NCBI GenBank assembly: GCA_017437785.1 | Contig: JAFRXH010000033.1 | Span: forward strand, 1-41,041 | Direction of reading: 5' to 3' | DNA: 41,041 nt | Source: Lachnospiraceae bacterium | GTDB taxonomy: Bacteria; Bacillota; Clostridia; Lachnospirales; Lachnospiraceae | Shown here: one piece after another, positions 19,438-40,710 of the stretch | How the letters are laid out: every line of letters begins with the position of its first letter | Numbering within the stretch: position 1 is the first letter of the stretch | Made by a program: the position numbers and the translations under genes | The notes under the pieces: model-generated | Databases searched by the model: none | What the model saw: only the letters and a program-made list of their open reading frames with translations | Told to the model about the DNA's origin: nothing

Positions 19438-19489
19438 GTCATCCTGAGCGAAGCGTTCACATGTCATCCTGAGCGAAGCGAAGGATCTT
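19438..19489 (+). repeat. Two copies of dispersed palindromic repeat A
   Basis: The core TCCTGAGCGAAGCGAAGGA can fold with GATCCT pairing to AGGATC. A shorter copy (19438-19455) and a full copy (19463-19489) stand in tandem. Other copies or relatives lie at 25625, 27506, 30554 and 40496-40543, so this is a dispersed family in this genome. Confidence 0.8.
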
Positions 19490-27505: not shown

Positions 27506-27532
27506 GTCATCCTGAGCGAAGCGAAGGATCTT
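27506..27532 (+). repeat. Repeat A copy between cbiC and cbiD
   Basis: Full-length copy with core TCCTGAGCGAAGCGAAGGA and the GATCCT-like/AGGATC arms. It fills most of the 81-nt spacer between the two ring-synthesis genes. Confidence 0.85.
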
Positions 27533-27560: not shown

Positions 27561-28625
27561 ATGACCTACGGTTTTACCACAGGCAGCTGCGCTGCAGCGG
27601 CAGCAGGCGCCGCAGCGCGCATGCTTTTTGGCGGAAAAGAAACAGATAAGATCACCATAATGACACCTGCGGGTATCGAGTATCATGCCGATATCCTGGA
27701 TATCAGCGCCTCGCAGGAGAGTGTTTCCTGTGCCGTAAAAAAATTCTCCGGCGATGATCCGGATATTACAAACGGCACGCTGATATATGCATCTGTAAGG
27801 CCGGTAGCGGACGGCAGGGGAGAAGTATATATTAAAGGCGGAAAGGGAGTGGGCCGCGTCACACGCCCGGGGCTTGATCAGGCTGTGGGTGAATACGCCA
27901 TAAACTCCGTTCCCAGACAGCTGATAAAGGAAACGGTAAGCGATGCCATGGAGCAGTATGCTTTCACGGATTCCATAGAAGTCACCATATCCGTGCCCGA
28001 GGGAGAAGAGCTTGCAAAAAAGACTTTTAATCCAAGGCTTGGCATAGAAGGAGGCATATCCATAATAGGAACGTCCGGCATAGTGGAGCCGATGAGCACC
28101 AAGGCGCTCATCGATACCATCAGGGTGGAGCTTAATCAGCAGAAAGCCGAGGGGGCAGAGGAGGCGGTGGTGGCCCCCGGCAATTACGGCCTTGAATTTA
28201 TGCGTGATCATTACGGCTTTGATCTTGATAAAGCCGTCAAATGCAGCAACTTCATAGGCGATACCATAGACATCGTTAAAGAGCTGGGCTTTAAAAAGAT
28301 GCTGCTCTGCGGTCATATAGGAAAGCTTATCAAAGTATCGGGAGGCATTATGAACACGCACTCAAAGGAAGCGGACTGCCGCATGGAGTTTATGGCTGCA
28401 GCAGCGCTAAGGGCCGGAGCCGATGCGCACACAGCCCTTAAGATCCTTGATATGAACACCACGGATGAGGCTCTTGAATATCTCTATGAAGGCGGCCTTG
28501 GTGATAAAACCCTGTCTTATATCCACGAAAGGATATTATTCTATCTTAATAACCGCGCCGGCGGAGCCGTACAGATCGACTGCGTGGTTTTCTCAGGCAC
28601 GGGACGCTCATGCGGACACTTCTGA
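27561..28625 (+). CDS. cbiD: Cobalt-precorrin-5B (C1)-methyltransferase
   Basis: CbiD methylates C-1 of the corrin ring during the anaerobic pathway. The 354-residue protein starts MTYGFTTGSCAAAAAGAAAR and has GKGVGRVTRPGLDQAVGEYA, NPRLGIEGGISIIGTSGIVE and LLCGHIGKLIKVSGGIMNTH. CAGGAG precedes the ATG. It is the last cobalamin gene here; cbiE, cbiT, cbiF, cbiG, cbiH, cbiJ, cbiK and cbiL are not in the window. Confidence 0.95.
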   Translation: MTYGFTTGSCAAAAAGAAARMLFGGKETDKITIMTPAGIEYHADILDISASQESVSCAVKKFSGDDPDITNGTLIYASVRPVADGRGEVYIKGGKGVGRVTRPGLDQAVGEYAINSVPRQLIKETVSDAMEQYAFTDSIEVTISVPEGEELAKKTFNPRLGIEGGISIIGTSGIVEPMSTKALIDTIRVELNQQKAEGAEEAVVAPGNYGLEFMRDHYGFDLDKAVKCSNFIGDTIDIVKELGFKKMLLCGHIGKLIKVSGGIMNTHSKEADCRMEFMAAAALRAGADAHTALKILDMNTTDEALEYLYEGGLGDKTLSYIHERILFYLNNRAGGAVQIDCVVFSGTGRSCGHF

Positions 28626-28743
28626 GATCATGTGATTTTTTTTGTTACTATTCACAATAAAATAGAACATTAAAAAGTTCAAGACAAAAAAAATAATACC
28701 GTCCTCAAACCATTGAAAATATCGGGTTTGCAGCGTGTTGATG

Positions 28744-28786
28744 CAGCTATCACCTTTGCACAAGATGTTAGCTGTATTTTTGTTGG
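28744..28786 (+). terminator. Probable terminator after cbiD
   Basis: CAGCTA (28744-28749) pairs with TAGCTG (28769-28774), then TATTTTTGTT. The loop is 19 nt and the stem 6 bp, so strength is moderate. The remaining spacer sequence (28626-28743) is AT-rich with no gene. Confidence 0.45.
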
Positions 28787-28823
28787 TATTTATTTTAAGA
28801 TAGTACCATGACAGCGGGCATAC

Positions 28824-28853
28824 TTGATAAGAGGGCGGGGCTTATTGTATAAT
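28824..28853 (+). promoter_or_regulatory. SigA-type promoter of the Cys-rich protein/sensor operon
   Basis: TTGATA (28824-28829), 18-nt spacer, perfect TATAAT (28848-28853). The expected start point, about seven nucleotides after the -10, falls on or next to the A of the ATG at 28860, so the transcript may be leaderless. Confidence 0.7.
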
Positions 28854-28859
28854 CGTCCT

Positions 28860-29099
28860 ATGAAGAACTCAAGCCGTTTTTTTGCTAACAAGGAATGTGA
28901 ATACTATCCCTGTCACAAGTGCAGCGTGGATATCAACTGCCTTTTCTGCTATTGCCCTTTGTACGAATATGACTGTCCCGGTAATTATAAATATGTGGAA
29001 GTAAAGAGAAAGAAGATAAAAAGCTGTATGGACTGTGTATTTCCGCATGTGGCTGAAAACTACGATAAAGTGATAGAGATCCTTAAGCAGGGAAAGTGA
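28860..29099 (+). CDS. Cysteine-rich small metal-binding protein (PF04071-like)
   Basis: The 79-residue protein has nine cysteines (13, 18, 21, 27, 30, 32, 39, 56, 59) in the pattern CEYYPCHKCSVDINCLFCYC, then CPGNYKY and CMDCVFPH. This matches the 'cysteine-rich small domain' family, which often lies beside anaerobic cobalamin genes in Clostridia and archaea; its role is unknown and metal binding is inferred. No Shine-Dalgarno sequence precedes the ATG, and the promoter -10 ends only 6 nt upstream. TTG at 28824 is open in frame but lies in the -35 box, so it cannot be the start. It is 4 nt upstream of the sensor gene, which suggests cotranscription. Confidence 0.75.
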   Translation: MKNSSRFFANKECEYYPCHKCSVDINCLFCYCPLYEYDCPGNYKYVEVKRKKIKSCMDCVFPHVAENYDKVIEILKQGK

Positions 29100-29103
29100 T
29101 GCT

Positions 29104-30600
29104 ATGCTTATAAGCAAAAGGACAAGGCGTAATATAATCCTGTTTTTTCTGATAGCGGTTCTTATAAACCTTATCGATATGTTTTTACCGATAGATTTTC
29201 CGATCCACAGCATAGAGATCCTTAGCTGGGGAATGCTTATGATATACTGGGGCGCGAGCGTATGGATGAGAGTTACGGATAAGAGGATAAGGACCCTTCT
29301 TTTATGTATTATGGCAGGCTTTGTAGCCCTGTATTTATTTCAGCTTTTCAAGTATCAGTTTTTGTATGATATGGATACCTTAAGCAGGCACTTCTGGTAT
29401 GTTTATTATATTCCGCTTATCTTTATTCCTGTGTTTTCCTTTATGGTATCACGCTCAATAGGCAGCAGGAGGGTTTTGGATGATATAACTGACAGGGTCA
29501 TGCTTTCTCTGGCATCGGTTTTGTGTGTCTTTACTCTTTCAAACGATCTTCATGAGTGCGTATGGACATTTGCGCCGGGCTTTGCTAACTGGGGAACACA
29601 GTATTCACATGGCTGGGGATTTTATATTATCTGTGCCTGGATCATCTGTCTTATGCTTACATCTTTTTATGAGGCAGTTAAGAGAGGGGCTTTTGGAGAG
29701 AGCAGAAGATATATGTTTATTCCGTTGACAGTGCTTATTATTGGTGCGTTATTTGGGGGACTTGATACTTTTACGGATTTTTTTGTTGTTATGGGCAGGC
29801 ACATTTTTAAGTTTCAACAGCTCTATTCGCTTATCATGATCGTTTTCTGGGAAAGCTTTATACAGACCGGGGTTATAGCTTCTAACAGGGATCTGGATAT
29901 GATATTTGAAAGATCCGGTATTGATGCGTACGTGTGCGATAAGGCGGAGCCCCTACAGACCGACATCAAGCCGGATGGTGCCATAAGACTGCATTGCCGG
30001 GAAGTTTCCGGCGGATATGTCTACTGGAAGGATGATATCAGCAGGCTAAATGAATTAAAGAATGAGCTGTTTAGCGTACAGGAAAATCTCACGCAGGAGG
30101 GAGAGATACTGCGTTCGCAAAAAGCCTTTAAGGAAAAGGAACTTTCGGTAAAGACAAGAACAGAGATCTATGACAGGCTCAGTATTGCATTAAAGGATAA
30201 GACGGATATGATGGAGCAACTGCTGGAGTCTGATCTGACGCTTAGGGAAAAATTAAAGTCCATGGCGGTGATAGGGGCGTATATCAAAAGATACAGCAAT
30301 CTGGTGCTTTTGGCAGAAAGCGAAGCTGAAAGCCGGCAGCTTGACTACAGGCAGGTCTGTCTTTCGCTTGATGAGCTTAAGCTTTCGATGGAAGAATCCA
30401 TAAGGTATATGCGTCTTCCGGGTGCGGGATCGGATTACATGCCTGATGAAGATATATTAAAGGGTAAGGAAGAAAAGCTCCCCGCAGAGGAGATTTTAAG
30501 CCTTTATCACAGCTTCGAGGCCGGCCTTGAGAAAGCCATATTCTCCACTCTGGGCCATCCGGAGCAAAGCGAAGGGCATTTATCGGAGGTGCCGCAGTGA
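29104..30600 (+). CDS. 7TM histidine-kinase-like sensor without ATPase domain, C-terminus altered by a repeat (set 1, protein A)
   Basis: Residues 1-265 hold seven to eight hydrophobic helices of the HisKA_7TM type, including the family pattern TLSNDLHECVWTF. A linker and a coiled coil follow (about 310-360), then a DHp-like helical segment (EIYDRLSIALKDKTDMMEQL, then GAYIKRYSNLVLLAESEAES). There is no phosphoacceptor H-box and no ATP-binding motif, so the protein probably senses and passes a signal to the separate kinase encoded next. Compared with the paralogue at 37727, about 50 C-terminal residues are missing: the homology stops at HSFEAGLEKAIFSTL and is replaced by GHPEQSEGHLSEVPQ from repeat A. 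The stop overlaps the next start. Confidence 0.75.
   Translation: MLISKRTRRNIILFFLIAVLINLIDMFLPIDFPIHSIEILSWGMLMIYWGASVWMRVTDKRIRTLLLCIMAGFVALYLFQLFKYQFLYDMDTLSRHFWYVYYIPLIFIPVFSFMVSRSIGSRRVLDDITDRVMLSLASVLCVFTLSNDLHECVWTFAPGFANWGTQYSHGWGFYIICAWIICLMLTSFYEAVKRGAFGESRRYMFIPLTVLIIGALFGGLDTFTDFFVVMGRHIFKFQQLYSLIMIVFWESFIQTGVIASNRDLDMIFERSGIDAYVCDKAEPLQTDIKPDGAIRLHCREVSGGYVYWKDDISRLNELKNELFSVQENLTQEGEILRSQKAFKEKELSVKTRTEIYDRLSIALKDKTDMMEQLLESDLTLREKLKSMAVIGAYIKRYSNLVLLAESEAESRQLDYRQVCLSLDELKLSMEESIRYMRLPGAGSDYMPDEDILKGKEEKLPAEEILSLYHSFEAGLEKAIFSTLGHPEQSEGHLSEVPQ
30554..30580 (+). repeat. Diverged repeat A inside the 3' end of the set-1 sensor gene
   Basis: GCCATCCGGAGCAAAGCGAA, followed by GGGCATT, matches repeat A with several substitutions. 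It is read as HPEQSEG, a relative of the DPERSEG peptide encoded by the copy at 40516, and it supplies the protein's final residues. Confidence 0.65.
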
Positions 30601-31892
30601 ATACTGTCATGTCCATCCCCGCACTTCGCATACTCTTCGCGGCAGCATTCTTATCCCTTACCTGGGGGGCAGTGTTTCTTCTTCGTCTTCGTATCAGCAA
30701 CACACGTTTTGGAAAGTCACGGGAGCGTATAAAGGCGCTTGCTACCTTTCTTATATTTGCATGTTCATACTTTATGCTGGAGGTGATGATGAACATAAAC
30801 GGACGGAGAGAGCTAAGTACAGTCAGCTCAGTGGCGCTGTTTTTCGGAAGCTTTCCCTTGTGGATATGTACCGTGCTGCTCCTTATACTGGTCGTTGTTT
30901 TCATTTATCTTATGAAAGATTACAGACAGTGGAGTAATGACCATATAAGTAATCTGTCGATAAAAGAGAGTATCGATCTCTTAAGTGCCGGAGTAGCGGT
31001 ATATACTGAAAAAGGCCTGCCTGTTGTGATCAATCCCGTGATGGATAATATCGGCGTAGCGGCTTTTGGTGAAAATATGTACGGCAGCACAGGACTTTAT
31101 GAAAAACTGCTTGGTTATGATAAGGACGTGATCAGAGCGGGAGATGAATACTATACATTCAGAAAAAACAGATTTAACATCGACGGCGTAGAATGTGTTG
31201 AGTTTATCTGTGATAACGTGAGTGATGAATACAAAACTGCCGGTCTTCTTAAAGAAGAGAATGAAAGACTTAAGCGGATGAATGAGCATCTTAAGGAGCT
31301 GAACAGTACCATAGATTCTTATGTTATAGAAAATGAGATACTTAATGCCAAGGTAATGGTTCATGACAGACTGGGGCAGACACTGCTGGCCACGCAGAAG
31401 TATCTGCTTGACGGTGACAGCGTTGATGAAGAGCGATCAGGCGAGCTGCTTGATATGTGGAAAGAAAATATCGGTTTTATGAGTAATTCCATGGATGATC
31501 AGAAAAACGATGAGCTCATGGCGCTTCTTACAGCGGCGGAAGATGTGGGAGTGGGGCTTGTATTTAATGGAAAAGCTCTTACCGGGGACGACTTTTATGA
31601 CTGTTTCGGTACCGATACGTACCCGGCTCATATAGCGCTTACCGCTATTCATGAATGTATGACCAATACACTGCGGCATGCCAAGGGAGATGAGGTATAT
31701 ATTACAGCCGAAAGAAAAGACGGATCATGCAGCATGGTAATTACCAATAACGGCAGCAGAGTGTCACAGGTGGTGGAAAAAGGCGGTCTTAAATCCCTAA
31801 GGAGTCTGGTGGAAAACAGCGGGGGTCGTATGGAGATACTGACAGATGAAGGATTTATGCTGAGAATAAATATCCGGACAGGGAGAGAATAA
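30597..31892 (+). CDS. Membrane histidine kinase, NarL/HisKA_3-like (set 1, protein B)
   Basis: The 431-residue protein has three N-terminal membrane helices (about 8-110), a PAS-like region (about 120-215), a coiled coil (215-245), the phosphoacceptor box VHDRLGQTLL with H256, and a HATPase_c domain with N-box HECMTNTLRHA (N357). TNNGSRVSQVVEKGG and LKSLRSLVENSGG supply the glycine-rich part. It should autophosphorylate and pass phosphate to the regulator encoded next. The GTG start overlaps the sensor stop (GTGA), with GGAGGTG 6 nt upstream; ATG 30609 is an alternative. The stop shares a base with the regulator start (TAATG), so the three proteins are made together. Confidence 0.85.
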   Translation: MNTVMSIPALRILFAAAFLSLTWGAVFLLRLRISNTRFGKSRERIKALATFLIFACSYFMLEVMMNINGRRELSTVSSVALFFGSFPLWICTVLLLILVVVFIYLMKDYRQWSNDHISNLSIKESIDLLSAGVAVYTEKGLPVVINPVMDNIGVAAFGENMYGSTGLYEKLLGYDKDVIRAGDEYYTFRKNRFNIDGVECVEFICDNVSDEYKTAGLLKEENERLKRMNEHLKELNSTIDSYVIENEILNAKVMVHDRLGQTLLATQKYLLDGDSVDEERSGELLDMWKENIGFMSNSMDDQKNDELMALLTAAEDVGVGLVFNGKALTGDDFYDCFGTDTYPAHIALTAIHECMTNTLRHAKGDEVYITAERKDGSCSMVITNNGSRVSQVVEKGGLKSLRSLVENSGGRMEILTDEGFMLRINIRTGRE

Positions 31893-32518
31893 TGAAGAAG
31901 ACAAGAGCCCTTATAGTAGATGATCAGAAGATATCGCGCCAGCTTTTTGAAAATTTTGTGCGCAGCTCGGATAAATATGAACTCATCAGATCCATCGACA
32001 CGGCAAAGATGGTGGATATATACATGGCCAGATACAGTGTTGATCTGATAATCATGGATATAGTGATGGGGGATGGTTCAAACGGTCTGGATGCCTGTGA
32101 GTATGTTAAGAATAATTATCCTGATGTAAAGCTTATCGCGGTAACATCCATGGCCGAGGCTTCCTTTATAGAGCGGTCAAAGGCCATAGGCGTGGAGAGC
32201 TTCTGGTATAAGGAAGCAAGCCGCGAGCCGCTGTTGGATATCATGGAAAGGACGATAGCGGGAGAGAGTGTGTATCCCGACAGTGCGCCTGTCATAAAGA
32301 TAGGACTTACGGATTCCTCCGATTTTTCCAATGCGGAGATGGCTGTACTTCGTGAGCTTACCACAGGTGCAGAGAATACCGAGATAGCCGCAAGGCTTCA
32401 GATATCGGTAAATACGGTCAAGTCACACATACGGCACATGCTTGATAAAACAGGCTTTCAGAACCGTACAGAGCTTGCTATCGAGGCGCGCTTAAAGGGC
32501 ATAGTAGTGCCGCTGTAA
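31892..32518 (+). CDS. Response regulator, receiver + LuxR/NarL-type DNA-binding domain (set 1, protein R)
   Basis: The 208-residue regulator has a receiver domain with acidic pair VDDQ, phosphoacceptor D56 (LIIMDIVMGDG), the T of VTSMA and K of FWYKE. A LuxR helix-turn-helix follows (FSNAEMAVLRELTTGAENTE, then ISVNTVKSHIRHMLDKTGF). It should be phosphorylated by the kinase encoded upstream and bind promoter DNA; the nearby lipoprotein and surface-protein genes are natural candidate targets. It shares GVESFWYKE and overall layout with the regulator at 37078. Confidence 0.9.
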   Translation: MKKTRALIVDDQKISRQLFENFVRSSDKYELIRSIDTAKMVDIYMARYSVDLIIMDIVMGDGSNGLDACEYVKNNYPDVKLIAVTSMAEASFIERSKAIGVESFWYKEASREPLLDIMERTIAGESVYPDSAPVIKIGLTDSSDFSNAEMAVLRELTTGAENTEIAARLQISVNTVKSHIRHMLDKTGFQNRTELAIEARLKGIVVPL

Positions 32519-32574
32519 ATGAAAAATCATCCTTTTGGGTGATTAACATAAATACCTGATATGTTAAAATACAC

Positions 32575-32620
32575 CTCGGTAGAGCATGGACTGATATATC
32601 CGTGCTTTCCGGGTTTTTTT
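32575..32620 (+). terminator. Strong terminator hairpin within the leader of the lipoprotein gene
   Basis: CTCGG (32575-32579) and AGCATGGA (32583-32590) pair with TCCGTGCT (32599-32606) and CCGGG (32609-32613), with G-U pairs, then seven T. Only 26 nt separate the T-run from the ATG at 32647, leaving no room for a promoter. It therefore either ends the regulator transcript with leakage or acts as an attenuator. A weaker hairpin AATCATCC/GGGTGATT lies at 32525-32544. Confidence 0.7.
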
Positions 32621-32646
32621 ATTGAGAAAAAGGGAGGAAAAAGATT

Positions 32647-34008
32647 ATGAAAAAAGCAAGATTGTTTGCGCTTGTGCTTGGGGCTGGCCTTTCGCTTTGC
32701 GCATGCGGAAAAAATGAGCCGGCTGCGGAGCCGGAGACAGAAACGCAGGCAGTAGAAGAGGAGGAAACAACAGATCCGGCGGATATCTATACTGCAAATA
32801 TCGATCCCTCTGAGATACATCCCGGGTCGCTTAACAGTGATGAGGATACGTCCGACCGCTGGTATCCGAATGGTGACACATCATCGGAGATATCCTTCAC
32901 ACTTACACAGACCTCTAAGCAGGACGATTGCGTAGGACTCTCATTCTGCCAGTATCACACCACAGCCGACGGAACCGACGACGATATGATCGATATGCCG
33001 CTTCGCGATGGCGGAAACGGGCATGCCATCACGGGTGAGTTTACATTTATGGTCGATAAGTCCGTGACTTACGATTACGACTTTACTTTCCAGGATAACT
33101 TTACCTGCTACGATTTTAAGAACGGTGTGGAGTGGAAGAGAAGCCATCCCGATTACGGCTGCAAGGATCAGAGCTGGTATGATAAGGCATTTGCGGGACT
33201 GGTGGCATATCGAGACCTTTCAAGCACAAAGCATCAGCAGATCGTTTTTAATGAGGACGGTACTTTTGTGGAATCTGTAACAGATATGGATGACATGAAG
33301 GGTCACTGGGAAGTGCAGGCAGCCAATGTGCTGATGCTGATCTATGATGATCCCGAGGATGCCGGCGTACAGGTGGTAGATGCAGGCGGACTACTTGAAA
33401 GCGACGGAAAAGACGGTGAAGCCACCACGGTAAGCGACAGCTGGCAGCAGGAGTTTACTATCTCTGAGGACGGAAAGGTGACGGAGTTCGGTCTTTTCCC
33501 TGTATATGATGATGACATGAATCTGGCAGGATATAAGCCGGCATTTGAAGTGACTACGGTTGCAGAGATGGAAGCTGCTGAACAAGAAGCCAAAGATAAA
33601 GCAGCAGCTGAGGAAGCGGCAGCGGCTCAGGCAAAGGCTGACGCACTGGCAGCAGGCAGCCCTTACGAGCAGCCGGCAGATAAGAATGATCTTTCGGGAG
33701 TGAACCTTGATCAGGTACCGGATTTCGTTATGGACAATACACAGGATTATAATACATTCAACGATATCAAAAGTGCTATCGGAAAGAGCTTTGGCATGAT
33801 CTATGAGATCCATGGTGTGCTGGAAGATAAAGATCATGTCCGTATACAGAATGATACCGGACGTTTGACGCAGACATTTAAGGTAGTGATCGTGGATGGT
33901 GATGAATTTAACGGTATCGCAGAGGAAGGCGATAACGTTGTTGTTACGGGAGTTCTTTGGAATACCAGATTCCTGTATACCGATTCGGCACATGTAAAAG
34001 CTGAGTAA
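32647..34008 (+). CDS. Secreted lipoprotein of unknown function
   Basis: The 453-residue protein starts with a lipoprotein signal (MKKARLFALVLGAGLSLCAC) in which C20 is the likely lipidated residue (lipobox LCAC). Residues 25-50 are an acidic Glu/Thr linker typical of Gram-positive lipoproteins. The mature part is rich in Asp and aromatics (YDYDFTFQDNFTCYDFKNG, DFGC-like segments) and has two lipocalin-like or beta-rich blocks, an Ala/Lys-rich helix (about 310-338) and a C-terminal OB-like region (IYEIHGVLEDKDHVRIQ to GVLWNTRFLY). I do not recognise a family. AGGGAGG nine nucleotides upstream gives the start. It lies between the two signalling sets. Confidence 0.75.
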   Translation: MKKARLFALVLGAGLSLCACGKNEPAAEPETETQAVEEEETTDPADIYTANIDPSEIHPGSLNSDEDTSDRWYPNGDTSSEISFTLTQTSKQDDCVGLSFCQYHTTADGTDDDMIDMPLRDGGNGHAITGEFTFMVDKSVTYDYDFTFQDNFTCYDFKNGVEWKRSHPDYGCKDQSWYDKAFAGLVAYRDLSSTKHQQIVFNEDGTFVESVTDMDDMKGHWEVQAANVLMLIYDDPEDAGVQVVDAGGLLESDGKDGEATTVSDSWQQEFTISEDGKVTEFGLFPVYDDDMNLAGYKPAFEVTTVAEMEAAEQEAKDKAAAEEAAAAQAKADALAAGSPYEQPADKNDLSGVNLDQVPDFVMDNTQDYNTFNDIKSAIGKSFGMIYEIHGVLEDKDHVRIQNDTGRLTQTFKVVIVDGDEFNGIAEEGDNVVVTGVLWNTRFLYTDSAHVKAE

Positions 34009-34061
34009 ACAGAAACCACGGAATTTCATATATATATCAATGTGGATTTTGGAGGAAGATC

Positions 34062-36947
34062 ATGGAAAAAAGGAAAACATTAAACAGGCTGCTTGCCATG
34101 CTGCTGACGTTCGTTCTGTGCGCGGGAGAATTATCTTCAACAGGGATCAAGGTATTTGCGGCGGATGCGGCAGAGACAGCCGTATCCGGAAATGATACGG
34201 TGAGTGAGGACAGTATCAGCAAAGATGATACGGTGAGTGAGGACGGTATCAGCAAAGATGATACCGTAAGTGAAGATGAGAGCAAGGCACCTGTTGAGAA
34301 TGCAGGGATGAATGAGAGTGAAGATGATGAAGATGATATAGAGGCGGAAGAGGAGGAATTGCTTGCCGGAAATACGGTAAATCTTTATAGTCTGACAGGC
34401 GATTATATAGCACAGGATGGGGATGTTCTGCGTGGCAGGTTAGCGGGAAATCATAAGATATCAATAGCAGATGGTGCCACCGTGACTTTCAACGGTATAA
34501 CTATTGAGGGGGTTGATGATAATGCCTTCCAGTGGGCAGGAGTTACATGTGAGGGCGATGCAACTATCATTTTGAAGGGAAGTAACGTTGTACGCGGTTT
34601 TATGTACAGGGAACCCGGAATATTTGTTAAGAAAGGTAAAACACTAACCATTACGGGTGACGGCATCCTTGAGGCATCCAGTAACGGTCAGGGGTGTGGT
34701 ATAGGAAGCGCATTGACAAGAGCGGATTCGGGAAATGTGATCATAAAGAGTGGAACAGTATTTGCGTATGGAGGATCCGGTTGTGCCGCCATAGGGGCAG
34801 CAGATTGTACTTCATGCGGCGACATCACGATTGATGGTGGAACGGTATATGCATATGGAGGAATTTACGCTGCGGGTATAGGAAGTGGAGACACACTTAT
34901 ATCAAAAACAGATACCGAAACAATTGTAAAAGGATCCGAATGTGGAAATATTACTATTAACGGTGGGACTGTATATGCCTTTGGCGGATTGCGTGGTGCG
35001 GGTATAGGAAGCGGGTATGGAGACAAAGAGTATGAATGCAGTCGTTGTGGGGAAATATCCATAGGGGATGCAATTGAGTATATTTATGCAAAAAGGGGCA
35101 GTAAAGAAGCACTGTGTATCGGGGAAGGGTGGTATGGAACGGTTGAAAAAATAAGCATAGCCAATGTGCTGAAGGATAATACGTTTGAGAATGTACGTAT
35201 AATCTCCAAGGCTGATGCAGTTATTGCCACGGCAAAAGATGTATCGGTTAGGTATGATGGGAAACCTCATGGTATAGAGGTAGCTGTCGGGCGGCCTGAA
35301 AATGAGGCTAAAGTAATGTATGGAACTGTTTATGGAGAATATGATCTGGAGACCTCTCCAACATTTACGGATACAGGGGAGTATAAGGTATATTATGAGG
35401 TTACAGCGGATGGATATATAGCATGCAGAGGAGAAGCTGCGGTAGAGATTTTGAAAGGTTACCAAACAGCTCCATCTGCACCGACTGTTAATTCTGTTAC
35501 ATCTGACAGTGTTACTTTAAATCCGATTGAAAACGGAGAATACAAATATCTGATCTATCAGGATGTGTGGGGATGGGACGATGGATGCGCCTGGCAGGAT
35601 TCTCCTGTTTTCACGGGGCTTCAGGAGAATACAACATACCGGTTTGTGCAAAGTTTTAAAGCATTGCCGAATTATTATAGATCAGCTTATTCGGATTATA
35701 TTGAAGTAACGACAGGAGTTCAGGGATACAATGTAATTTTTAACCTCAATGGTCATGGAGAGCAAGCTCCTCCACCCCTTTACATTGAAAAGGGCAAAAC
35801 TGCTGCAAAGCCAGCCGATCCTGTTGATAACGACGGCTGGACTTTTGGCGGATGGTATACGGATGAAGCCTGTACTTCAGCTTATGATTTTACAACTCCG
35901 GTAACAACAGATATTACTCTTTATGCAAAGTGGAGCAAGATCGTTGTACCCGGACCGGTTCCAACGCACTCACCTCTTGATCCTGTACCGGAGATAAAGG
36001 ATGATACCACCAGGTTATATCTGGTGAAGGGGCAGAAGTTTACTCTGGGTGTTGACTGGAGCCTGGATGACAGCGATAAGGACAAGCTTAAGGCATATAA
36101 GAAGCTGTTTAGCATAAGTAAAAAGGGTAAGGTTACTGTAAAGAAGCCGGGTGAAGTGGTGATCGTTAAAAAGGATGCCGGTGGGAATGTGCTCCAAAGC
36201 ATTGCGGTAAATATTACAAAGCCCGAACTGACAGAAAAGAAGCTTAAACTGGAAGCCGGCGTAGTGGATAAGGATACAGGCAGCGTAGAACTTAAGAATG
36301 CTGAAAACATCAATGTGTATTACTACAGCTCTGCACCGGATGTGGCGACTGTCGACCAGACCGGTAGGGTAACGGCTGTGGCAAAAGGAAGCGCAAAGGT
36401 CACGGCTTATGCAAACGGAACGGCATATACCGCAAGCGTGAGCGTAAAGGAACCAAGTGCCGTAAAGGAGCGTACGCTGCACTTGTCTGTAAAAGGCTCC
36501 AAATCTGTTAAGTTAAGCGGTGTAAAGAAGACTGTCTGGGAATATGCGGAAGGAACTGCCGAAGAAGAGAAAGCTGTCGTAAGTATCAAAAACGCAAAGA
36601 TCACCGGTCTGAAGGCCGGAACCATTACCCTGATAGCTAAGGATGAAATGACAAGCTATAAGATGACGGTCAAGGTGGATGATCCTTCCATAACACCGGT
36701 ACATGAAGAGGATAAGTATGATCTGAAGTCTGCGGGCAAGAATAAGTATGCGCTGACTATGGCAGCCGGGCAGAAGCTTACGCTAAGCTATACGGATATA
36801 GACCAGCCGGTTATCTATAAGAGCTCAAAGCCGGAAACCGCCTTTATCGACGAAAAAGGAAATATAGAAGCGCGAAGCATAGGTAAGTGTAAGTTTACAG
36901 CCAAGGTTAATGGCAAGACGATAACGATAAGCGTAACAGTCAAATAA
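34062..36947 (+). CDS. Large secreted surface protein: beta-helix, InlB-type repeat and Ig-like domains
   Basis: The 961-residue protein has a signal peptide (1-33, MEKRKTLNRLLAMLLTFVLC ... VFAA). An acidic stalk follows with 11-residue repeats (DTVSEDSISKD), then a parallel beta-helix-like region (about 105-385) with repeats such as GNITINGGTVYAFGG and AGIGSG. Next come an MBG-like segment (VSVRYDGKPHGIEV) and a fibronectin-like part. About 557-626 is an InlB/Listeria-Bacteroides repeat (NVIFNLNGHG, WTFGGWYTDEAC, YAKWSK), followed by two or three Ig-like BIG2 domains to the end. No LPXTG motif, SLH domain or membrane anchor is seen, so it is secreted or held by other contacts. An adhesin or glycan-binding role is likely but unproven. 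GGAGGAAG precedes the ATG. No terminator separates it from the lipoprotein gene. Confidence 0.8.
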   Translation: MEKRKTLNRLLAMLLTFVLCAGELSSTGIKVFAADAAETAVSGNDTVSEDSISKDDTVSEDGISKDDTVSEDESKAPVENAGMNESEDDEDDIEAEEEELLAGNTVNLYSLTGDYIAQDGDVLRGRLAGNHKISIADGATVTFNGITIEGVDDNAFQWAGVTCEGDATIILKGSNVVRGFMYREPGIFVKKGKTLTITGDGILEASSNGQGCGIGSALTRADSGNVIIKSGTVFAYGGSGCAAIGAADCTSCGDITIDGGTVYAYGGIYAAGIGSGDTLISKTDTETIVKGSECGNITINGGTVYAFGGLRGAGIGSGYGDKEYECSRCGEISIGDAIEYIYAKRGSKEALCIGEGWYGTVEKISIANVLKDNTFENVRIISKADAVIATAKDVSVRYDGKPHGIEVAVGRPENEAKVMYGTVYGEYDLETSPTFTDTGEYKVYYEVTADGYIACRGEAAVEILKGYQTAPSAPTVNSVTSDSVTLNPIENGEYKYLIYQDVWGWDDGCAWQDSPVFTGLQENTTYRFVQSFKALPNYYRSAYSDYIEVTTGVQGYNVIFNLNGHGEQAPPPLYIEKGKTAAKPADPVDNDGWTFGGWYTDEACTSAYDFTTPVTTDITLYAKWSKIVVPGPVPTHSPLDPVPEIKDDTTRLYLVKGQKFTLGVDWSLDDSDKDKLKAYKKLFSISKKGKVTVKKPGEVVIVKKDAGGNVLQSIAVNITKPELTEKKLKLEAGVVDKDTGSVELKNAENINVYYYSSAPDVATVDQTGRVTAVAKGSAKVTAYANGTAYTASVSVKEPSAVKERTLHLSVKGSKSVKLSGVKKTVWEYAEGTAEEEKAVVSIKNAKITGLKAGTITLIAKDEMTSYKMTVKVDDPSITPVHEEDKYDLKSAGKNKYALTMAAGQKLTLSYTDIDQPVIYKSSKPETAFIDEKGNIEARSIGKCKFTAKVNGKTITISVTVK
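34194..34280 (+). repeat. 33-bp tandem repeat in the surface-protein stalk
   Basis: Two full units (34194-34226 and 34227-34259) and a partial third encode DTVSEDSISKD-type peptides. Unit length is a multiple of three, so copy-number change would lengthen or shorten the acidic stalk without breaking the frame. The first two units differ at one base, a sign of recent duplication. Confidence 0.85.
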
Positions 36948-36955
36948 TGATCATC

Positions 36956-36984
36956 AAGGGCCGCCGGTAAAAGGGCGGCCTTTT
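36956..36984 (+). terminator. Intrinsic terminator of the surface-protein gene
   Basis: GGCCGCC (36959-36965) pairs with GGCGGCC (36974-36980), extended by AAG/TTT at the base, then TTTTAAAA. It begins 9 nt after the stop codon. The second signalling set therefore probably has its own promoter in 36985-37060, where AT-rich sequence (TTTTGTATTATATATG) could hold a -10. Confidence 0.85.
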
Positions 36985-37077
36985 AAAAATGGTACAAATG
37001 GGTGATATACAATATCCTTTCTGTTTTGTATTATATATGCATGAGCAATTAATGCAGGCAGAAGGAAGGTGGATATC

Positions 37078-37734
37078 ATGAACAGGCAGGATGCGGTAAG
37101 AGTCATCGTATGTGATGATCAGAATATATCCCGCGGATTCTTTGAGATGTATGTCCGCGCAGCAGCGGGCTTTGAACTGATAGCAGGACTTCGAACGGCA
37201 AGGGAAGCTGTGGACTATCTTAAGGAGCATGAGGTCGATCTTCTGATACTTGATGTTATGATGCAGGATGGTATCGATGGTTTGAGCGCTGCGGCCCTGA
37301 TCAAAAAGGAACACCCGCAGCTTAAGATAATACTGACTACTTCGGCCGCAGAGACCGGCTGGGAGGATAAGGCACGTGCAATAGGCGTGGAGAGCTTCTG
37401 GTACAAAGAGTACGATGAGCATGGCATACAGGAGATAATGAACCGTACCATGGCGGGCGAATCGGTCTACCCCGGAGATGCACCGGATGTATCTTTCGGC
37501 AAGATCAAACGATCCGATCTGACAGACCGGGAGCTGGATGTCCTGCGTGAGCTTACCGGGAGCCTTACAAATGAGGAGATAGCCGAGAAGTTATGCATTT
37601 CTGTTAATACGGTCAAGCGGCACATCCAGAATATCATGGAAAAGACGGGTTATGAGAACCGCCTGGATGTGGCAATGAATGCCAAAGCACTTGGACTTGT
37701 GGTAAGTGACAAACAGCGCACTGGTAATGGCTAA
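37078..37734 (+). CDS. Response regulator, receiver + LuxR/NarL-type DNA-binding domain (set 2, protein R)
   Basis: The 218-residue regulator has the acidic pair CDDQ, phosphoacceptor D59 (LLILDVMMQDG), TTSAAE and the FWYKE lysine, then a LuxR helix-turn-helix (LTDRELDVLRELTGSLTNEE, ISVNTVKRHIQNIMEKTGYE). It is clearly paralogous to the regulator at 31892. ATG 37078 is preferred to GTG 37069 because GGAAGG lies 8 nt before it. In this set the regulator is the first gene, whereas in set 1 it is the last. Its end overlaps the next gene by 8 nt. Confidence 0.9.
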   Translation: MNRQDAVRVIVCDDQNISRGFFEMYVRAAAGFELIAGLRTAREAVDYLKEHEVDLLILDVMMQDGIDGLSAAALIKKEHPQLKIILTTSAAETGWEDKARAIGVESFWYKEYDEHGIQEIMNRTMAGESVYPGDAPDVSFGKIKRSDLTDRELDVLRELTGSLTNEEIAEKLCISVNTVKRHIQNIMEKTGYENRLDVAMNAKALGLVVSDKQRTGNG

Positions 37735-39373
37735 ACATACAAAGAGAAAGAAACTGTATATATTTATAGCGTTTTTCATACTGGCGGGGATCTGTAATGC
37801 CATCATGCGCGGAAATAACGCGCTGTTTGCATCGTTGATGTTCTCCCTTAATTTTTCCATATACGGCGGACTCCTGGTATACTGGATGGAGTCTGTCCGT
37901 GTGCGGCTGCTTCCGACCAGGTGCCGGGCATATATACTGACATCAGCGGTGCTGATGCTGTTTTTTTTGATATTAAAGATCTGTAAATACCGTGTGTTTT
38001 CAAATATCATAACTCCGTCACGGTATATAGAATACTTATACCTGATCCCGACACTTCTCATACCCACTCTGTTCCTGATGGCCTCGATATGTATAAGCAG
38101 AGGAGAAGATATTAATGATAAAGGCAGCGAAAAACTGCTTCTTATACCTTCGGTCCTTTTGTGTTTTCTTGCCATCACAAATGATCTGCATAAGCTTGTA
38201 TACATGCCGCGGGTGGATCTTTCCGAATTCTGTGTGAATACCGGCACATATACCACGGGGATAATACTATATCTGATCTATGTGTGGATCGCAGTCATGG
38301 CTTTATATGCTGCTGTTATATTGTTTCGTGTTACCAGAAAGCGCCCGGGAAAGATCGTTTTCTGGATGATAGCAGTACTGCTTATGTGGGCGGCGCTTGA
38401 GTGTGTCCGGATATTTATCCTGATACCTTTAGATCTGCCGCGTATGTACAATACTCCGGAGATACGCACGTTTTCGATGCTGGCGATACTTGAGATCTGT
38501 ATCCGCAGCCGCCTGATACCTCATAATGAGAATTACGCCGGTTTCTTATCCGGGCTTAAGCTTCCTGTACTGATGACCGACGGGAAGATGGCTCCGGTTT
38601 TTTGCAGTGCCGTTACTTTGAAGGCATCAGACGAAGAAATGCGATCTGCGCTTGATTTTCCGCTTTATACCGATGAATATACCAGGCTGAGCGGTATAAG
38701 GGTAGGGGCCGGTTATGTGTTCTGGAATGAAGACGAAAAAGAGCTTCACAAAGCGACAAGACGTCTTGAAGAGGCGAATGCTATCCTCAGTGAAGAAAAC
38801 GATCTGATCCGCGTGGAGAATGAGCTGAAGGAAAAGAAGGCAAGGCTTGATGCCGAGGCTAAAGTGTATGACAGGATAGCCTCTGTGATATACCCTAAAC
38901 AGAAGAGGATAGAGCAGCTTTTAGAGAGTATAGATCCGAAGGATACGGATTTTGGTGCAAGGCTTGGCGAGGCTTGTGTCCTTAATGCTTATTCAAAACG
39001 AAAGAGTAATCTTTTGCTGATATCACAGGATAATCTTCCAAAGAGTAACCGTGAGCTGTATCTGGCATTGCAGGAAACGGCGCGTTTTTTAAAATGCTGT
39101 GGGATCGAGGCGGCCGCTGTGGGAGAGGAATACACGGATTTTCCCTTATCTTATGTTCATGAGCTGTATGATGATTTTGAAACGCTTATCGAGGCATGGC
39201 TGCCCTATCTTAAGCGCCTTACGGTATCACTTACGGAAGAAGGGATACGTATTGCGGCAGAGCTGACAGAGGCAGCCAAATTTCCTGATATGGCGCTTTT
39301 TGTTAAAAGCACCGAGGCGGATGGTTTCACTTTCCTTACGATATACGGGAATAAGGGAGGTGAAGGAAAATGA
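37727..39373 (+). CDS. 7TM histidine-kinase-like sensor with degenerate catalytic region (set 2, protein A)
   Basis: The 548-residue paralogue of the protein at 29104 has a basic N-terminus (MAKHTKRKKLYIF), seven to eight membrane helices to about residue 265 with the family pattern ITNDLHKLVYMP, and a coiled coil (about 345-385). A DHp-like part follows (KVYDRIASVIYPKQKRIEQL, NAYSKRKSNLLLISQDN). The C-terminus FETLIEAWLPYLKRLTVSL to FTFLTIYGNKGGEGK looks like a shrunken ATPase fold with no N-box, so it is probably a pseudokinase. ATG 37727 lies within the regulator gene; GTG 37706 is also possible, and neither has a clear binding site. The stop overlaps the next start (ATGA). Confidence 0.75.
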   Translation: MAKHTKRKKLYIFIAFFILAGICNAIMRGNNALFASLMFSLNFSIYGGLLVYWMESVRVRLLPTRCRAYILTSAVLMLFFLILKICKYRVFSNIITPSRYIEYLYLIPTLLIPTLFLMASICISRGEDINDKGSEKLLLIPSVLLCFLAITNDLHKLVYMPRVDLSEFCVNTGTYTTGIILYLIYVWIAVMALYAAVILFRVTRKRPGKIVFWMIAVLLMWAALECVRIFILIPLDLPRMYNTPEIRTFSMLAILEICIRSRLIPHNENYAGFLSGLKLPVLMTDGKMAPVFCSAVTLKASDEEMRSALDFPLYTDEYTRLSGIRVGAGYVFWNEDEKELHKATRRLEEANAILSEENDLIRVENELKEKKARLDAEAKVYDRIASVIYPKQKRIEQLLESIDPKDTDFGARLGEACVLNAYSKRKSNLLLISQDNLPKSNRELYLALQETARFLKCCGIEAAAVGEEYTDFPLSYVHELYDDFETLIEAWLPYLKRLTVSLTEEGIRIAAELTEAAKFPDMALFVKSTEADGFTFLTIYGNKGGEGK

Positions 39374-40710
39374 GGGCTATAGACAGCTTATATGGTTCAC
39401 CAATCCTGCACACTTTATGTATATCAGCCATATTTATAATGGTATGGGCGATAGGAATGTTCATAAGGACTATCAGGGAAAAACGAAGTACGGGCCTTAT
39501 CATTTTTTCGTTTTTTATCATGTGTTCTTCCTTTGCGGTATTTGAGATACTTATGGACTGCAGTTTTTATTTTATCGCCAGGAATGGTAATGACCGGTAT
39601 ATACGGCTTCAGTATCTGTTGTTTTCAAGGCCGTGGCTTTTCTATGCCGGATCGGAGCTTTTGTGTGCTGCGCTCCTTGTATATATAGTGACCGAGAAGC
39701 TTACGTATGAAAAGAAGCATCTTACGGCCGATACCATCCGCCAGGCAGTAAACTATCTGCCCGAAGGGATAGCGATAGGCAGGAAGGACGGCACCGTGCT
39801 TTTAGCAAATCTTAAGATGGAAGAGCTCTACCGGAATATGACGGGCGGCGTACTCTCGGACATTAGGGAACTGACGGGGCAGATAAAAAAGAATGTTACG
39901 GGTGAGGATGAGCAGCAGCTTGTTTCGATGGAAGACGGCACTGTGTGGCAGTTTGAGGATGAGGCAGTCACTCTGGACGGGGAAGAATACATACAGATCG
40001 TTGCCGGGGATGTTACGGAGCGTTACCTGATCATTAAGGAGCTTAAAGATAAAAATGCGCATCTTACCGATATACGCAGGCGTATGAAGGCGGTATCGGA
40101 TCTGTCTGCAGATATGTTCATTGCGGAGGAACAGCAGAAGGCGCGTGCGGCGCTTCATAATCAGCTTGGGCAGGTGCTGCTTATGGGACGATACTTTCTT
40201 GACCATCGCGACAGTACGGACCCCGGACTGGTCTATACAGTAACTACGCAGATGAACCGCTTTCTTTTAGGTGAGGCGCCGGCCGATATCCCGGCGTCTG
40301 CGGATGCGCTTGCTGCCGCTGTAGCCATGGCCGGCAGTATCGGCGTTACCGTGCATTTTGAGGGCGATGAGCCTGCGGATGAAAAGATAAGGGAGGTCCT
40401 GGCAACAGCCATAAGCGAATGCGCCGCCAATACCGTAAAGCACGCCGACGGCGACAGCATAAGTGTATGCTGCCATCATGATGTGGCTACGCCCGGTCAT
40501 CCTGAGCTTACTTCCGGTGATCCTGAGCGAAGCGAAGGATCTTCCCCCGCCGCACTGCTCATTACTATCACCAATAACGGCATCCCTCCCAAGCGCCCTG
40601 TTGCAGAGAGCGGCGGCCTTTTATCTCTTCGTAAAAAAGTTGAGGCCATGGGCGGCCAAATGACAGTAGACAGCGTCCCCGTCTTCAGGCTCACAATCGT
40701 CTTCTCGTAA
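39370..40710 (+). CDS. Membrane histidine kinase with a repeat-encoded insert in the ATPase domain (set 2, protein B)
   Basis: The 446-residue kinase has three membrane helices (about 12-110), a PAS-like region (about 122-225), the phosphoacceptor box ALHNQLGQVLL with H263, and a HATPase_c domain with N-box SECAANTVKHA (N354). Residues about 376-393 (GHPELTSGDPERSEGSS) come from two repeat A copies and lie between the strand after the N-box and ITITNNG. The paralogue at 30597 runs straight through here with only a short ERKDGS turn. The insert replaces a surface loop, so the kinase may still work. GGAGGTG upstream supports ATG 39370, which overlaps the sensor stop. Confidence 0.85.
   Translation: MRAIDSLYGSPILHTLCISAIFIMVWAIGMFIRTIREKRSTGLIIFSFFIMCSSFAVFEILMDCSFYFIARNGNDRYIRLQYLLFSRPWLFYAGSELLCAALLVYIVTEKLTYEKKHLTADTIRQAVNYLPEGIAIGRKDGTVLLANLKMEELYRNMTGGVLSDIRELTGQIKKNVTGEDEQQLVSMEDGTVWQFEDEAVTLDGEEYIQIVAGDVTERYLIIKELKDKNAHLTDIRRRMKAVSDLSADMFIAEEQQKARAALHNQLGQVLLMGRYFLDHRDSTDPGLVYTVTTQMNRFLLGEAPADIPASADALAAAVAMAGSIGVTVHFEGDEPADEKIREVLATAISECAANTVKHADGDSISVCCHHDVATPGHPELTSGDPERSEGSSPAALLITITNNGIPPKRPVAESGGLLSLRKKVEAMGGQMTVDSVPVFRLTIVFS
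40496..40543 (+). repeat. Tandem repeat A copies inside a kinase gene
   Basis: A partial copy (TCATCCTGAGCTTA, from 40497) and a full copy with core TCCTGAGCGAAGCGAAGGA (within 40516-40543) stand in tandem, in frame. The full copy is identical in its core to the intergenic copies at 19463 and 27506, which implies recent spread. Confidence 0.9.

Follow-up and report, generated by a model that had tools for sequence, protein, structure and literature searches.

Can the sensor of a two-component system be divided between two membrane proteins, one of which lacks the catalytic residues? The question is raised by a stretch of DNA from a Lachnospiraceae bacterium (GenBank assembly GCA_017437785.1, contig JAFRXH010000033.1, positions 1 to 41,041), here called the window and analysed at its full length of 41,041 nucleotides (nt); it corresponds to contig C89 in a genome assembly of 3.2 Mb and 107 contigs. 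It encodes two three-gene sets, each with a seven-transmembrane (7TM) protein that resembles a histidine kinase (A), a separate histidine kinase with three transmembrane (TM) segments (B) and a LuxR-type regulator (R). We propose that each set is probably a two-component system whose sensor is divided between a pseudokinase receptor, A, and a kinase, B, and whose R controls surface proteins here and elsewhere. The proposal builds on the observed anatomy of the sets, the co-conservation of their genes, the distribution of a predicted operator and the covariation of that operator with R.

Two A-B-R Sets Surround a Lipoprotein and a Large Surface Protein

An earlier note, made from the letters of the window, had described two paralogous sets around a lipoprotein and a large surface protein. 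This layout was confirmed, with all open reading frames (ORFs) as described and on the forward strand. The gene order is A1-B1-R1 in set 1 and R2-A2-B2 in set 2, and the lipoprotein and an exported protein of 961 amino acids (aa) lie between them:

29104..30600, forward strand: A1, 7TM pseudokinase-like receptor of set 1, with a short C-terminus and no catalytic His or Asn
30597..31892, forward strand: B1, 3TM histidine kinase with H256/N357; the B family profile matches DesK
31892..32518, forward strand: R1, NarL/LuxR-type response regulator, recognition helix NTVKSHIRH
32522..32545, forward strand: predicted operator preceding the lipoprotein and surface-protein genes, with a -10-like box at 32565-32570
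32647..34008, forward strand: lipoprotein, a likely target; a homologue lies right behind A-B-R in locus L033
34062..36947, forward strand: large exported surface protein (961 aa) with beta-helix, InlB-type (Flg_new) and Big_2 regions, a likely target
36985..37008, forward strand: predicted operator preceding R2-A2-B2, with a -10-like box at 37029-37034
37069 (ATG 37078)..37734, forward strand: R2, NarL/LuxR-type response regulator, recognition helix NTVKRHIQN
37706 (ATG 37727)..39373, forward strand: A2, 7TM pseudokinase-like receptor, with Y388 opposite the B His in the profile alignment
39370..40710, forward strand: B2, 3TM histidine kinase with H263/N354; the family profile matches DesK

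The sets are indeed paralogous, with identities between set 1 and set 2 of 25% for A, 23% for B and 47% for R. Both regulators contain Response_reg and GerE domains (receiver and helix-turn-helix) above the Pfam cut-off. The overlapping junctions were read from the sequence as GTGA (A1/B1), TAATG (B1/R1) and ATGA (A2/B2), and R2 and A2 overlap by 8 nt when the A2 ATG at 37727 is taken as the start.

The A Proteins Lack the Kinase Residues That the B Proteins Keep

The residue counts cover the window and 75 neighbourhoods, with 73 A and 72 B proteins; A proteins below 400 aa, B proteins below 280 aa and matches scoring no more than 100 bits had been left out beforehand. The alignments kept 61 of the 73 A and 61 of the 72 B proteins, near-identical and odd loci being dropped. 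ORFs were called by a simple longest-first rule, which hides some true genes (A of L050 and R of L035, for example). TM segments were predicted by a simple hydropathy rule, which gave seven for A1 and A2, as first described, and five to nine for all 73 A proteins. The catalytic His and Asn are absent from A, again in agreement with the earlier description, and the H-box position is still recognisable as YDRLS or YDRIA. The residue opposite the H-box His is Tyr in 58, Leu in 5, Thr in 3, Phe in 3, and Ser, Ala and Met in one each (72 rows, one gap); none of the 72 aligned A rows has His there.

A HATPase_c domain in A would contradict the proposed division of labour; a profile search at E ≤ 0.01 detected it in 0 of 61 A proteins. 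We also considered that A is an ordinary HisKA_7TM kinase with an overlooked HATPase domain and rejected this, since none of the 61 matched any HATPase family at the same threshold. HisKA_7TM (PF16927), the N-terminal 7TM region, was matched by 40 of the 61 at E ≤ 0.01 (proteins scanned singly); A2 scored 28.1 bits, just below the cut-off of 28.6, and A1 gave no relevant Pfam match. Searching the PDB with the A profile returned 17 weak matches, none of them a histidine kinase. The A proteins also have a motif of their own, Lys431-Arg432 in 72 of 72 and Asn435 in 69 of 72, and conserved residues in the membrane part (N159 in 71 of 73, H162 in 70 of 73). The motif and the membrane residues together argue that A is constrained in its own right rather than merely in decay.

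For the B proteins, the hydropathy rule gave three N-terminal TM segments in B1 and B2, as described; in B2 the plot shows one more peak, a weak one at 310 within the cytoplasmic portion. The catalytic residues were found where the earlier note had placed them (B1 H256/N357, B2 H263/N354), and the H-box His and the N-box Asn are each present in 71 of 71 aligned rows, one broken row giving gaps. HATPase_c was matched by 33 of 61 B proteins at E ≤ 0.01 (scanned singly), with weak matches below the Pfam cut-off for B1 and B2 themselves. The B family profile finds DesK in the PDB (E 1.2e-18), and the best NCBIfam match of B1 is UhpB (E 7.7e-6, 24.9 bits against a cut-off of 408).

A and B Occur Together

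Across the order, 392 genomes were surveyed, the best three or four candidates being scored per genome, so that solo A or B genes may be missed. A is present in 40 of these genomes, and 171 of them have a B match at E ≤ 1e-4. A total of 54 B rows are strong (E < 1e-40); the next has E 2.4e-17 and the remainder reflect mainly the general kinase core. The earlier reading would be undermined by a lack of co-conservation; an A row lies ahead of 52 of the 54 strong B rows. The other two are the window's own B1, because the three candidates scored there did not include A1, and a B gene whose start is base 4 of its contig. Conversely, 54 of 61 A rows are followed on the same strand by a strong B row, 46 of them within 175 nt of the match ends, and the wider gaps are due to partial matches. 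Of the seven A rows without B, one is a partial match, one is the first of two tandem A genes (A-A-B-R) and five are weak partials (23-90 bits).

In the phylum, A was found in 14 of 398 genomes, ten of them outside the window's class. Outside the family, 11 loci were examined: B accompanies A in 8, two of these B being weak; in two more the A gene is cut by the end of the sequence, and the last holds a divergent A whose only partner is a regulator. A search of named genomes with the single protein A2, which finds close relatives only, gave 21 relatives, mostly from metagenome-assembled genomes of Lachnospiraceae, Clostridia or Oscillospiraceae, 12 of the 21 being titled as ruminant gut samples.

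The hypothesis that A is in decay, a former kinase replaced by B and retained by linkage only, can be judged from these counts. It could draw on the A remnants in L040-L042 of the genus and on A1, whose C-terminus is shorter than in 70 of 73 A proteins, but it conflicts with residues that are invariant or nearly so across 61 diverse members, with the conserved gene coupling and with the A ahead of nearly every strong B; we consider it extremely improbable. A short repeat, CATCCTGAGCGAAGCGAAGGAT, is present at 19465-19486, 27508-27529 and 40519-40540 (3 copies with ≤3 mismatches, 0 expected); one copy lies inside the B2 coding sequence, and a diverged piece, seen by eye, forms the end of the short A1.

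When B is started at the codon closest to the A stop, A and B overlap by 4 nt in 42 of 70 pairs and by 1 nt in 10 of 70. R was called downstream of B on the same strand in 58 of 72 sets, at a B-R distance of -77 to +136 nt; R is sometimes upstream of A-B, and a longer ORF on the opposite strand masked at least one R (L035). The suggestion that the overlaps make 1:1:1 production likely was therefore too strong: it suits the 52 of 70 A-B junctions with a 1- or 4-nt overlap, but not the B-R junctions. The same figures bear on whether A acts on R instead of B, its pseudokinase tail binding the regulator and setting the output in the manner of DivL. In DivL the His is replaced by Tyr, and the protein binds DivK~P (PMC4211667); Tyr is also the commonest residue at the position in A. 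The tighter coupling of A to B than of B to R points the other way, and action on R appears improbable to us.

A Is Probably the Receptor

B lacks an N-terminal membrane segment in 10 of 72 sets, and in those ten A is the sole membrane protein. SBP_bac_6, an extracytoplasmic solute-binding domain, scored above the cut-off in 3 of 10 long A proteins scanned. Because of these two observations A is probably the receptor of the pair. The three long proteins (L196, L202 and L203) have SBP_bac_6 fused to HisKA_7TM, with no kinase domain detected in Pfam, and resemble solute-binding pseudokinase-like receptors. The division of labour put forward in the earlier note, A without the catalytic residues and B with them, is thus supported by the near-strict pairing, by B proteins that lack membrane segments and by solute-binding domains on some A.

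A Predicted Operator Precedes the Sets and Surface-Protein Genes

A 24-bp element was first seen by eye in upstream regions and then tested. It is common to the upstream regions of sets and of neighbouring surface genes; an exact search for 6-mer palindromes in 36 upstream regions had yielded a single palindrome common to just two. A weight matrix from 11 sites gave 51 matches of score ≥14 in 1,087,678 nt of neighbourhoods, training sites and some matches inside genes included, compared with 2-9 (mean 5.6) for ten permuted-column matrices. At the 21 named loci (L208 being on the same contig as L045) there were 16 matches against a mean of 0.8 in controls: 9 before R, 1 before an exported protein, 4 before other genes or no called gene, and 2 probably due to chance. 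A -10-like box with at least 5 of 6 matches accompanies 35 of 38 sites of score ≥18, compared with 11 of 38 in shuffles, and starts 19 or 20 nt past the site in 30 of 38. Class II activators bind a site overlapping the -35 region, and this spacing would put the predicted operator over the -35 region in the same way.

The window has one copy before the lipoprotein gene (32522-32545) and one before R2 (36985-37008). An operator before A1 was sought and rejected (best score -1.2), so transcription of set 1 may come from upstream. Ahead of the set (27561-29099) are genes for CbiD (PF01888) and a cysteine-rich small protein (PF04071), separated from A1 by 4 nt.

Judged by the hydropathy rule, 31 of 69 loci have a secreted-like gene immediately behind the set, compared with 38 of 219 genes at least four positions away; for secreted-like genes of ≥600 aa the counts are 14 of 69 and 4 of 219 (nominal Fisher p 8e-6 and 9e-7, for loci that are related by descent). 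Of the three ATTACCCCCAAATGGCGGTAGT sites in the window genome (≤3 mismatches), two are at the set on contig C69 and the third precedes a 1285-aa exported protein on C38. AAATGGTACAAATGGGTGATAT (≤3 mismatches) also has three, before R2, before a 1531-aa exported protein (C98) and before the degraded copy of that gene (C86); reversed-pattern controls for both found none in this genome. The lipoprotein site is unique there at ≤3 mismatches.

Four operator versions were then searched in 35 genomes of the genus with ≤2 or 3 mismatches. They gave 8, 12, 30 and 16 sites (66 in all), and the reversed-pattern controls 0, 0, 4 and 0, the four control matches lying one each in four A-negative genomes. 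Of these sites, 21 precede A or R genes (one an A remnant), 39 exported proteins and 2 remnants, and 4 are ambiguous, including one before a TIR-domain gene and one before a channel-like gene. "Exported" denotes a signal-like start by the hydropathy rule, once by eye (L255); most exported ORFs run off the stretch examined, and one is only 145 aa (L238). The 29 sites outside set neighbourhoods comprise 24 before exported proteins, 2 before remnants, 1 before a regulator and 2 ambiguous ones. Sites occur in 10 of 11 A-positive and 0 of 24 A-negative genomes, so that all 66 coincide with A (Fisher 6e-8). Since the versions were first read from set loci, the sites there are partly so by construction, and the informative part is their absence from A-negative genomes together with the sites outside sets.

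In two well-sampled classes, the operator version also follows the recognition helix of the local R. At eight loci with helix TVKMHIS the sites have GGTA right halves and mostly TACC left halves, and at eight with TVKRHIQ they read ATGGT...GGGTGAT or GGGGGAT. TCAnCC...GGnTGA sites go with R1 (TVKSHIR; the window sites being assigned to regulators by position) and with two TVKTHI regulators (L146, L157), a third class that is weak because neither a gene nor a -10 box follows the L157 site. L139 and L152 belong to none of these classes. The AAAAATGGTTCTCGC version occurs in precisely the seven genomes that have the L043-like A clade, and the two TACC versions in precisely the nine with the A1-like clade. 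Helix-operator covariation and clade match together provide the best support for R as the reader of the element and for a possible insulation of sets that share a genome. That the operator belongs to some other regulator, with the sets as mere members of its regulon, is very unlikely, given this tracking of the local helix and given that all 24 A-negative genomes of the genus are free of the four versions.

In the window, the site ahead of the lipoprotein and surface-protein genes fits R1. The R2 version precedes set 2 itself and, on other contigs, surface genes. The earlier claim that the regulators control the enclosed surface genes agrees with the predicted operators before the lipoprotein gene and R2, but "enclosed" is too narrow, the version of set 2 being found elsewhere too. 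Operators also persist before degraded pieces of surface genes (L172, G000:C86; L178, G031:C53), which suggests turnover of the surface-protein family. In one clade a second, longer regulator follows R (L043 9934-11982, L050 12276-13683, L054 2701-4185), with an operator copy at or near the gene start and, in L043 and L054, a different recognition helix, TVKQNID. At L058 (2604-5177) a TIR-domain protein (TIR_2, E 6.6e-10) is encoded near an A-B-R set, behind an operator-like site with 3 mismatches.

Proposed Mechanism and Its Alternatives

We infer the signal, the A-B contact, the phosphotransfer, the binding by R and the sign of regulation. A would act as a membrane receptor whose 7TM input, at times with a solute-binding domain, picks up an outside signal, and whose histidine-kinase-like tail would no longer have the phospho-accepting His or a recognisable ATP-binding motif. 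B, of DesK/NarX type with a PAS-like domain, would phosphorylate itself and then R. A would pair with B, most likely via the coiled coil and pseudo-DHp (dimerization and histidine phosphotransfer) helices, and set the balance between its kinase and phosphatase activities. R~P on the 24-bp operator overlapping -35 would activate the promoter of its own set and, both nearby and elsewhere in the genome, those of lipoproteins and large exported surface proteins. Different sets in the same genome would use different operator versions, matched to the recognition helix of their R.

The relatedness of A and B was assessed by comparing their alignments. Whole-alignment profiles of A and B match with E 2.3e-13 and their cytoplasmic parts with E 4.9e-8 (94.8%), the alignment being co-linear through the PAS-like stretch, the coiled coil and the H-box position, where A Y388 falls opposite B H263. 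The stretch from the coiled coil through DHp and CA (catalytic and ATP-binding domain) gives E 2.1e-5, compared with E ≥0.21 in 20 column-shuffled controls. From these comparisons the tail of A is likely of pseudokinase origin. Alternatively, A could be an independent receptor like UhpC, its tail only touching the input region of B, which would be a homodimer and an ordinary kinase without pseudo-DHp pairing. In favour of this, UhpC is the signal detector that activates UhpB (PMC4790336), membrane segments remain in 62 of 72 B proteins, and the DHp-CA parts of A and B alone are not significantly similar (3.6% probability, E 0.012). This arrangement is at odds with the A-B co-linearity and with a tail that has its own invariant motif (KR), and we regard it as somewhat unlikely.

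Several observations count against the divided sensor that we prefer. Besides the DHp-CA result, a coiled coil can inflate the A-B scores, and column shuffling destroys the coiled-coil pattern too. The G1-box Asp of B is mostly replaced (Asn 56, Ser 8, Asp 7; n = 71), with NNG in both B1 and B2, and 21 of 71 B proteins have HN instead of HD at the H-box, including B2 (B1 has HD). No R was called behind B in 14 of 72 sets, and L052, in the genus, is an intact A without a called B. As to the operator, no copy precedes A1, sites at set loci are partly circular, and the AAATGGTAC version, present in 5 of the 6 genomes that have the A2-like clade, also occurs in 2 of the other 29.

More tentatively, and with somewhat less than even confidence, we suggest that A may represent a class of pseudokinase receptors acting in obligate hetero-oligomers with a dedicated kinase, several insulated copies per genome, each with its own operator code, serving as parallel channels that choose which surface proteins are displayed. 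The sets would be a natural, repeated test of a dead kinase as the receptor for a live one, and the predicted operator points to a regulon of large surface proteins, in bacteria of the animal gut, that can be checked directly.

Comparison With Known Systems

The sets were compared with systems of similar layout and with systems that include an inactive or divided kinase. Among these, UhpC is transporter-like, unlike A; RcsB is of LuxR type, like R; and, to our knowledge, DivL is not encoded beside CckA.

The earlier note knew of no described system with this division of labour. As to the A-B-R sets themselves this still stands, in that none of the open-literature papers surveyed, judged by titles and the starts of abstracts, describes them. 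As to the general layout it does not, since UhpC-UhpB-UhpA, which senses sugar phosphate in E. coli and is the nearest system in layout, likewise has a separate membrane sensor, sensor kinase and DNA-binding regulator (PMC4790336). A differs from UhpC in being a 7TM protein with a histidine-kinase-like tail, and the predicted targets of the A-B-R sets are surface proteins.

For the inactive partner, RcsC-RcsD-RcsB comes near, since there too an active kinase and a regulator operate with a protein whose HATPase domain is inactive (PMC7418988); RcsD has an HPt domain and passes phosphate, whereas 0 of 61 A proteins match such a domain in Pfam. In Caulobacter, Tyr replaces the phospho-accepting His of DivL, a pseudokinase that acts via the active kinase CckA, but DivL keeps a histidine-kinase module with DHp and CA (PMC4211667), while A is 7TM and has no recognisable CA. 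Kinase functions are also divided over two proteins in CheA3/CheA4 (PMC3591291) and Hik36-Hik43 (PMC7656254). In CheA3/CheA4 the phosphorylatable and the ATP-binding domains are on separate proteins; here B has both and A neither. ChrS is a pseudokinase that arose in laboratory evolution and forms heterodimers with HrrS (PMC9491836). With the HisKA_7TM sensor kinases (PF16927), 40 of 61 A proteins share the 7TM match but none of 61 the HATPase_c domain, and none of 72 has a phospho-accepting His of its own. With the DesK/NarX-type (HisKA_3) kinases, B shares the H-box His and the N-box Asn, and the G1 Asp mostly differs.

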